From: Sphingomonas canadensis
GTDB taxonomy: Bacteria > Pseudomonadota > Alphaproteobacteria > Sphingomonadales > Sphingomonadaceae
Direction: 5' to 3'
Assembly (NCBI RefSeq): GCF_026013525.1
Contig: NZ_JAPDRA010000001.1
Location: 124,001 to 188,000 of the forward strand
DNA length: 64,000 nucleotides
The notes beneath the pieces are model-generated. The model had not been told where the DNA came from, made no database searches, and was given only the letters and a program-made list of their open reading frames with translations. Of the stretch, positions 14,250-62,662 are shown in pieces. Made by a program: the position numbers and the translations under genes. The first letter of the stretch is position 1; the number at the start of each line of letters is the position of its first letter.

Positions 14250-14297
14250 TCCTCCCCGGCACGGGGAGGGGGACCGTCCGCAGGACGGTGGAGGGGG
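14250..14297 (+). repeat. GC-rich palindromic repeat unit, copy C
   Basis: A 48-bp unit built from CTCCCCGGCACGGGGAG, then GGGGACC, a small CCGCAGG-centred hairpin (GTCCGCAGGAC) and GGTGGAGGGGG. It has the same architecture as the two copies inside truB at 62072-62198 and lies in the 149-nt gap between pntA1 and pntA2. This looks like a REP-type family dispersed in the genome. Confidence 0.7.
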
Positions 14298-61666: not shown

Positions 61667-62662
61667 TTACAGGTTGAAACCGCGAACGACCCGGACTTCC
61701 CCGGCCTGAGCCTCCACCAGCGCGACCGGAATCTCGTCCAGCGTCGCGAAATGGAGGCCATCGTCGGCGGCGATCCCGGTCAACATCTGCCCCATGCGGA
61801 GCATCCCTGCCTGACCGGGGGAGAGGGATAGAGCCGGGATGTCGTCCAGCCCCGCCCTCAACGGCAGGAGATGTTGTTCAAGCGCGCGGCTCTTAGCGGT
61901 ATCCGCCAGATTGTCCAGCGAAATCGCCTGGTCCAGCGTGAACGGCCCCGCCTTCACGCGCCGCAGATAGGTGACGTGGCCCACCGTTCCCAGCGCCAGC
62001 GCGATATCGCGCGCCAGGCTGCGGATATAGGTGCCCTTGGAGACATGGGCACGCAACGTCACGGTCTCCAACTCCTCCCCCGGGGGGGGAGGGAGACCAG
62101 CCGCAGGCTGGTGGAGGGGTAGCGCCCCCAGGGACGCATCGCTCGTGGATAATACCCCTCCACCGCTTCGCGGTTCCCCTCCCCCTCCGGGGGAGGAATG
62201 GCACAGCGAATGCACCGTCACCGACCGGCTCTTCAGCGCCACCGCCTCGCCCGCGCGGGCGAGGTCATAGGCGCGCTCGCCGTCCACCTTCAGCGCCGAA
62301 TAGGCGGGCGGAACCTGATCGATCGGCCCGGTGAAGCGGGGCAGCACCGCCGCCACCCCGGCGATCGTGGGCCGCACGTCCGATTGCGCGATCACCTTGC
62401 CCTCGGCATCCAGCGTGTCGGTCTGCTCGCCGAAGCGGATGGTGAAGTCATAGACCTTGTCGCTGTCGAGCATGCGGCCCGCCAGCTTGGTCGCCTCGCC
62501 GATCGCGATGGGCAGCACGCCGCTCGCCAGCGGATCCAGCGTGCCGCCATGGCCCACCTTCCATTTGCCGTAGCCGCCCTCGCGCAGCGCGCGCTTGACC
62601 GCGCTCACCCCCTGGGTGGAGCCCAGCCCCAGGGGCTTGTCGAGGATGATCCAGCCATGCAC
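61667..62662 (-). CDS. truB: tRNA pseudouridine-55 synthase with repeat-encoded insertion
   Basis: A 331-aa TruB that makes Psi55 in the T-loop of tRNA. Catalytic Asp43 is in GGTLDPLASGV; KVYDFTIRFGEQTDTLD and HVSKGTYIRSLARDIA are family segments. Residues about 154-198 have no TruB counterpart: they are Gly/Pro/Ser-rich and are encoded exactly by the inverted pair of palindromic repeats at 62072-62198. The reading frame stays open through the insertion. It falls in a loop between two conserved strands, so activity may be retained. Confidence 0.94.
   Translation of the reverse strand: MHGWIILDKPLGLGSTQGVSAVKRALREGGYGKWKVGHGGTLDPLASGVLPIAIGEATKLAGRMLDSDKVYDFTIRFGEQTDTLDAEGKVIAQSDVRPTIAGVAAVLPRFTGPIDQVPPAYSALKVDGERAYDLARAGEAVALKSRSVTVHSLCHSSPGGGGEPRSGGGVLSTSDASLGALPLHQPAAGLPPPPGEELETVTLRAHVSKGTYIRSLARDIALALGTVGHVTYLRRVKAGPFTLDQAISLDNLADTAKSRALEQHLLPLRAGLDDIPALSLSPGQAGMLRMGQMLTGIAADDGLHFATLDEIPVALVEAQAGEVRVVRGFNL
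62072..62121 (+). repeat. Palindromic repeat copy A inside truB
   Basis: A 50-bp unit: CTCCTCCCCCGG and GGGGGAGGG, then GACC, AGCCGCAGGCT, GGTGGAGGGGTA. Related to copy B (inverted) and copy C at 14250. Confidence 0.85.
62153..62198 (-). repeat. Palindromic repeat copy B inside truB, inverted
   Basis: Read on the minus strand it begins ATTCCTCCCCCGGAGGGGGA and ends GGTGGAGGGGTA, the same unit as copy A in opposite orientation; 31 bp separate the two. Confidence 0.85.

Follow-up and report, generated by a model that had tools for sequence, protein, structure and literature searches.

Palindromes inside truB are already known. Di Nocera et al. (2013; PMC3733652) describe, in the available sections of that paper, REPs of the GTAG and CGTC kinds inside genes, including truB of S. 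maltophilia, E. litoralis and S. alaskensis; they cite R. conorii truB as carrying RPE-1, report two Xanthomonas with different REPs at about one recB site, and suggest that flexible linkers or loops are tolerant places. RPE are described in the available text of PMC10969869 as palindromes of about 150 bp lying in frame in unrelated genes, and intragenic palindromic repeats, whether an accident or a route to new protein segments, are there called still unexplored. The available sections of PMC3733652 report no site common to several repeat families in many species, unlike the TruB loop described below. In the open-licence literature we found no report of REPs in truB beyond PMC3733652, none of several palindrome families taking turns in one loop, and none of a site in murD.

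The palindromic insert in truB

The window, by which we mean the whole 64,000-nucleotide stretch of Sphingomonas canadensis DNA that was analysed, contains a truB gene whose listed start is GTG and whose product scored 220.8 with TIGR00431 (cut-off 151.45). The Pfam domains TruB_N (33-153) and TruB_C_2 (214-272) flank an insert at about residues 154-198, and a Pfam search of this TruB found no domains beyond the TruB ones. The features of the locus are as follows.

61667..62662, minus strand: truB, tRNA pseudouridine(55) synthase, 331 aa (TIGR00431, E 1.5e-65)
62073..62197, no strand assigned: type A palindromic element, an inverted pair of units in frame in truB (ends as in the dispersed copies; fold z −6.2)
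62073..62121, plus strand: first unit, with a TCCTCC terminal hairpin, a second hairpin (ACCAGCCGCAGGCTGGT) and a G-rich tail (from the sequence)
62122..62152, no strand assigned: centre separating the two units (from the sequence, and by analogy with the fast-evolving centre in a related clade)
62153..62197, minus strand: second unit, head-to-head with the first (from the sequence and inverted repeat pair I1)

We set the bounds of the element at 62073 and 62197 because the dispersed copies end in TCCTCC...GGAGGA; the original prediction, which placed an inverted palindromic pair at 62069-62203, was accurate to a few bases. The truB segment contains a 37-nt inverted repeat, 78% complementary, with arms at 62062-62098 and 62172-62208. 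Folding of 62060-62210 gave −99.7 kcal/mol versus −71.9 (sd 4.5) for shuffled sequences, a z of −6.2, with none of 200 shuffles as low. That z value, together with the dispersed copies, ruled out a chance origin of the palindrome. An Rfam search returned ten weak matches, mostly to microRNA models and all below their gathering scores. Each unit also has a single-unit match elsewhere in the genome, for example C12:506891-506947 (88%) for the first and C12:359798-359845 (90%) for the second. As had been predicted, translation and the Pfam matches showed the frame open and the TruB domains intact around the insert. The prediction that about 45 TruB residues come from the palindrome pair held as to an in-frame insert, but that figure includes native flanks: the loop measures 141 nt versus 39 nt for the commonest short loop of relatives (20 of 57), a net gain of about 34 residues.

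Dispersed copies and their ends

Type A occurs in its own genome at seven places besides truB at E < 2e-5, the best other copy being C4:47105-47229 with 83% over query positions 14-139; a subset of these copies, viewed by eye, seem to be intergenic or at gene ends. Viewed by eye, the C4 copy follows directly on what may be the start codon of an acetyltransferase frame, and that frame runs open through the copy. At 14250-14297 in the window itself, a pattern match followed by inspection by eye showed one type A unit (TCCTCCCCGGCACGGGGAGG...GGTGGAGGGGG), which is probably a gene-adjacent single-unit copy. In six other genomes type A gave 69-82 strand-wise matches each among the best 40 candidates per genome, most of which spanned the full unit, from query position 3 to 134-138; since a palindrome is matched on either strand, they represent at least about 40 places per genome.

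A joined query, containing one loop each of the five further palindrome types that we found in truB (types B to F), gave 59-108 matches per carrier genome among the best 40 candidates per genome, counting matches to any part of the query. Types B to E recur many times, each in one carrier genome: among the matches listed, nearly all were to the genome's own type in the carriers of B (G057), C (G147) and D (G067), and type E accounted for 8 of 15 in G031. Type F appeared, among the matches listed, at the truB site and one other place in G024 and at two places in G031, and makes a weak case for a dispersed repeat, the weakest among the types. Several genomes (G051, G075, G078 and others) gave many extra matches in the TruB protein search; these are possibly translated repeat copies, and annotation may turn repeats of this kind into spurious proteins.

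In 27 type A copies the letters most often present at the ends were AGATCCTCC...GGAGGATCT. Of 29 copies, taken from six genomes, 27 had the outer end TCCTCC, which served as the search anchor, and AGA mostly preceded it. Some units in the S. canadensis genome end in GGGGTAG on the inner side, and most of the type A truB inserts in the DNA alignment do not. Direct duplicates of at least 3 nt, as a target-site duplication would leave, flanked none of the 27 copies (for 3 nt, the average in shuffled pairs is 2.7). A search for Y1_Tnp (PF01797, RAYT) found none in the S. canadensis genome and matches over the cut-off in 15 of 151 group genomes, and these counts give no support to RAYT as the mover of type A.

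Type A thus shares with REPs of the GTAG superfamily its dispersed, head-to-head paired palindromic units, but in the copies read it lacks their conserved GTAG end, and its genome lacks the associated RAYT (Y1_Tnp). Types B, C, D and F mostly carry CGTCA/TGACG ends, which recall those of CGTC-tagged REPs, whereas the type A copies read are without CGTC ends. Like MITEs as characterized in the available text of PMC10969869, type A is short and dispersed and has terminal inverted repeats; the target-site duplication of MITEs is absent in the 27 copies. The long truB loops resemble Rickettsia palindromic elements in being inserted in frame within protein genes (85 of 86 loops), a likeness by description to elements of another organism. 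To that extent the comparison with Rickettsia drawn in the original prediction is apt; its picture of a mobile REP-like pair made protein-coding also fits, mobility being read from the dispersal and from the changes among relatives.

The TruB loop in related genomes

TruB was present in 149 of 151 Sphingomonas-group genomes and the site was read in 143; those left out were two without a match, three with weak matches (G007, G069 and G144), one without a listed place (G138) and two cut by contig ends (L131 and L133). Loop lengths were bimodal, 27-69 nt in 57 of the 143 and 93-231 nt in the other 86. Hence the segment is not ordinary conserved TruB sequence common to all relatives, and copies of the unit do lie elsewhere in the genome, as expected if the pair had been inserted. 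Folding with z below −3 was found in 76 of 88 loops of at least 60 nt. The frame was kept, without stops, in 85 of the 86 long loops; the lone out-of-frame loop was in G088, a single-contig assembly that is 88% complete. Match lengths in BLAST for 28 type A copies, taken modulo 3, were distributed 6/11/11, and of 162 reading frames crossing type A copies 138 were open. The lack of stops in truB inserts therefore says little alone, and the stronger point is that their lengths are multiples of three.

By hand assignment from translated motifs, the 86 long loops comprised 61 of type A, 9 of B, 4 of C, 4 of E, 3 of D, 2 of F, one of G, one unrecognised and one C plus A double. The six palindrome types can be sorted by sequence into about four groups: A; E, a G/C-rich palindrome of a different kind; B with C, whose representatives have 24-nt ends 83-88% alike; and D with F, whose representatives are 68% alike over 100 nt. 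Between representatives of different groups no match exceeded 18 nt. All C loops (4 of 4) and all D loops (3 of 3) contained both CGTCA and TGACG, as did 5 of 9 B loops and 1 of 2 F loops. Among named relatives, Stakelama sediminis, Sphingobium ummariense and several Sphingomonas have a type A loop, as do three records of S. faeni; the loop is type F in Sphingomonas sp. Leaf230 and type C in Leaf20 and S. aurantiaca. The double insert (L119, G005) has type C and then type A, the type A region in truB of Sphingomonas sp. A2-49 (L194) is unusually long, and some short loops look relic-like by eye, for example HSSPTVRDGPPSGAGEELVE or LRHPGDGMELES.

Among 30 sites fetched from other genera of the family 28 were read, and 8 of these (L271, L272, L274, L278, L280, L281, L285 and L287) have a conserved, seemingly non-palindromic TruB insert (SAFATTAGRPDPYDP...; about SAFATTAGRPDPYDPSAPLELAD), which may have no relation to the palindromes or may have been domesticated long ago. 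Because of these 8 sites the family-wide list of TruB spans was not used as evidence. In a class-wide search three genomes, S. canadensis and two of the same family, had a TruB span above 700 nt among the matches listed, which were the best-scoring ones and covered about 150 of the 268 genomes with a match.

Exchange of palindrome types

A tree of 142 TruB cores, constructed without the loop columns and without L112, requires at least 43 type changes and 26 changes between long and short; support is modest (27 of 139 branches starred), so that 43 is a rough figure. If starred branches alone are counted, A must have changed at least 13 times and short at least 10 times. In neighbouring rows of the tree A stands next to C, D, E or short, and near-identical TruBs have differing palindrome types. 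One clade of 14 rows with support 100 contains 11 A, 2 C and 1 F; its DNA alignment places A, C and F in one interval with the same flanks on either side. One clade clearly shares an inherited type A insert.

In all six genomes in which at least 3 copies were compared, the truB insert was on average nearer to copies in the same genome than to the truB inserts of other species; a seventh, G051, with one copy compared, went the opposite way (1 of 7). This test used 24 of the 28 copies fetched and three from the S. canadensis genome, omitting L336, which is itself truB, as well as L334, L340 and L346, whose genome could not be assigned; the copies were the best-scoring ones and therefore a biased sample.

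Insertions in murD and other genes

Flanks were read for 28 type A copies (L324-L351), again the best-scoring ones. Four lay in frame in recognised genes, one in truB (L336), two in murD (L343 and L348) and one in the gene for a dihydrolipoamide acyltransferase (L347), where the element is in the E2 linker, after the lipoyl domain (70-142) and before the E3-binding domain (224-255). Another three (L327, L331 and L340) passed the composition test used for in-frame copies.

The murD profile match began late, at position 56-61, in 59 of 151 genomes. At the 55 sites read fully, the insert was in frame in 54 and out of frame in one (G082); G121 and G054, whose murD starts near a contig end, were not read, and L404 and L426 were read in part. 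The 50 in-frame murDs measured have 89-136 residues between motifs versus 59-72 in genomes without the late start (27 of 30 read). By assignment partly from pattern and partly by eye, about 18 inserts are type A and about 36 E-like. Five further murDs (L438-L442) combine an early match start with a long span, and the two that could be read have 80 and 82 residues, so that murD inserts may be undercounted. The murD of S. canadensis matches from position 3 with an ordinary span, and an insert is not indicated there. The out-of-frame G082 murD (L427) contains a short remnant of an element, which either reflects a true defect or arose by misassembly at a palindrome. Judged from these sequences murD is a second in-frame insertion site. 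Among 137 genomes, excluding G085, G088, G007, G035, G083 (no listed main murD match), G121 and G054, long loops occurred in both genes in 47, in truB only in 34, in murD only in 8 and in neither in 48 (Fisher p 2e-7), an association that relatedness of the genomes may inflate. The original prediction is right and understates the case, in that several palindrome types use the TruB loop and murD has a similar site.

Structure and sequence evolution of the insert

Large variation in TruB length is restricted to the loop: in the 129 of 143 TruBs measured, the standard deviation was 1.3 aa before the loop, 18.6 in it and 1.9 after it. In a structure model of the window's TruB built with 36 aligned sequences (mean pLDDT 85), only residues 160-188 fell below 50, and the insert was modelled as an excursion between strands 146-155 and 200-207. 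The closest structural match of the model was E. coli TruB 1k8w, in which the insert maps between chain residues 172 and 181. The model thus suggests a disordered excursion at a beta hairpin turn, and from frame conservation together with the model we conclude that the inserted segment is probably translated into a surface excursion that TruB tolerates.

In eight truBs of the clade sharing the inherited type A insert, pN/pS was 0.75 in the loop versus 0.09 in the core; in this clade the inserted peptide drifts in near-neutral evolution. When the loop was divided, using eight rows of which one was changed relative to the pN/pS set, pS was 0.024 in the palindrome arms versus 0.212 in the core, and much higher in the centre and tail. 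This slow synonymous change in the arms hints that more than neutral drift is acting; pS was as low as in the arms in 29 of 300 core windows of equal length. Minor-allele frequency was 0.024 in paired columns versus 0.164 in unpaired columns. Compensatory changes occurred in none of 56 pairs in a 9-row set and in one pair in each of two small sets; with almost none found, they were set aside as proof of RNA structure.

Discussion

We consider it highly probable that the truB insert is a copy of the dispersed type A repeat, in frame and tolerated, and that the TruB loop is a recurrent landing site for exchangeable palindromes. We propose that type A, an inverted pair of double-hairpin units of about 48 nt amounting to about 125-135 bp, would have entered the turn of the TruB beta hairpin with the frame unbroken. 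Resident palindromes would insert widely, and a few loops of core enzymes would tolerate in-frame copies; the tolerant loops would fill, empty and refill, with gains, losses and replacements recurring. In related species the loop is short, or has type A, or has one of five other palindrome types. Gain, loss and replacement recur, in our interpretation, probably because selection spares only frame-preserving insertions in permissive loops. We infer a survival filter rather than a target preference, and neutral tolerance is the simplest account. Against this account weigh the lack of a target-site duplication, the lack of Y1_Tnp in the S. canadensis genome, the slow synonymous change in the arms, the G051 comparison and the out-of-frame copies in G088 truB and G082 murD.

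The insert might instead be kept for a role at the RNA or DNA level, as a hairpin in truB mRNA, upstream of rpsO, that alters stability or the translation of a neighbour, or as something that binds a DNA protein. The nearly frozen arms in one clade (pS 0.024 versus 0.212), the contrast between paired and unpaired columns (0.024 versus 0.164) and the very strong folding speak for such a role; nevertheless the loop is short in 57 of 143 relatives, types are swapped among close relatives, hardly any compensatory changes are seen, synonymous rates are equally low in 29 of 300 core windows, and gene conversion with other copies could also slow the arms, and on this balance we regard the role as unlikely. 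That several element types occupy one loop of the same two genes could also mean that the integration machinery prefers a DNA sequence at the truB and murD sites, without selection sparing permissive loops. We think this quite unlikely: types with different ends use one loop, the flanking codons of truB and murD differ, the flanks of the 27 type A copies mainly show the element's own terminal palindrome (AGATCCTCC / GGAGGATCT), and the sites examined are a modelled loop and an interdomain linker.

A single ancestral insertion, inherited vertically and diverged into the present variety, would accord with the predominance of type A (61 of 86 long loops), with the clade that clearly has an inherited insert, and with the resemblances of B to C and of D to F. 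It is very improbable as an account of the whole, since the groups A, E, B/C and D/F share no match above 18 nt, the types recur elsewhere in their carrier genomes and are swapped between near-identical TruBs, and the inserts were nearer to same-genome copies in 6 of 6 genomes. Hardly credible is the suggestion that translational bypass or splicing skips or removes the segment and keeps it out of TruB altogether. The only ground for raising this is the very stable hairpin, and nothing favours it directly; the frame is kept in 85 of 86 truB and 54 of 55 murD inserts, which would be needless if the segment were skipped or excised, and the window's TruB has no further Pfam domain.

Starting from the preferred reading of a tolerated, exchangeable repeat, a broader proposal may be made, which we offer as a doubtful extension. 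In sphingomonads a few loops of core enzymes (TruB, MurD and perhaps the E2 linker) might be refuges that unrelated selfish palindromes share, from which copies would be lost or replaced only in frame. Gene conversion, or selection acting on the hairpin, would then preserve the arms as the encoded peptide drifts, and residents of long standing could become ordinary protein, as the non-palindromic TruB insert of other genera might be.

The TruB loop, filled by different elements in many species, forms with the murD site a natural replicated experiment in two core enzymes. Short, filled, double and probably relic states exist side by side, making gain, loss and fate countable. The finding also marks the TruB and MurD loops as places that tolerate tens of extra residues, and illustrates a way in which core genes can accommodate selfish DNA.
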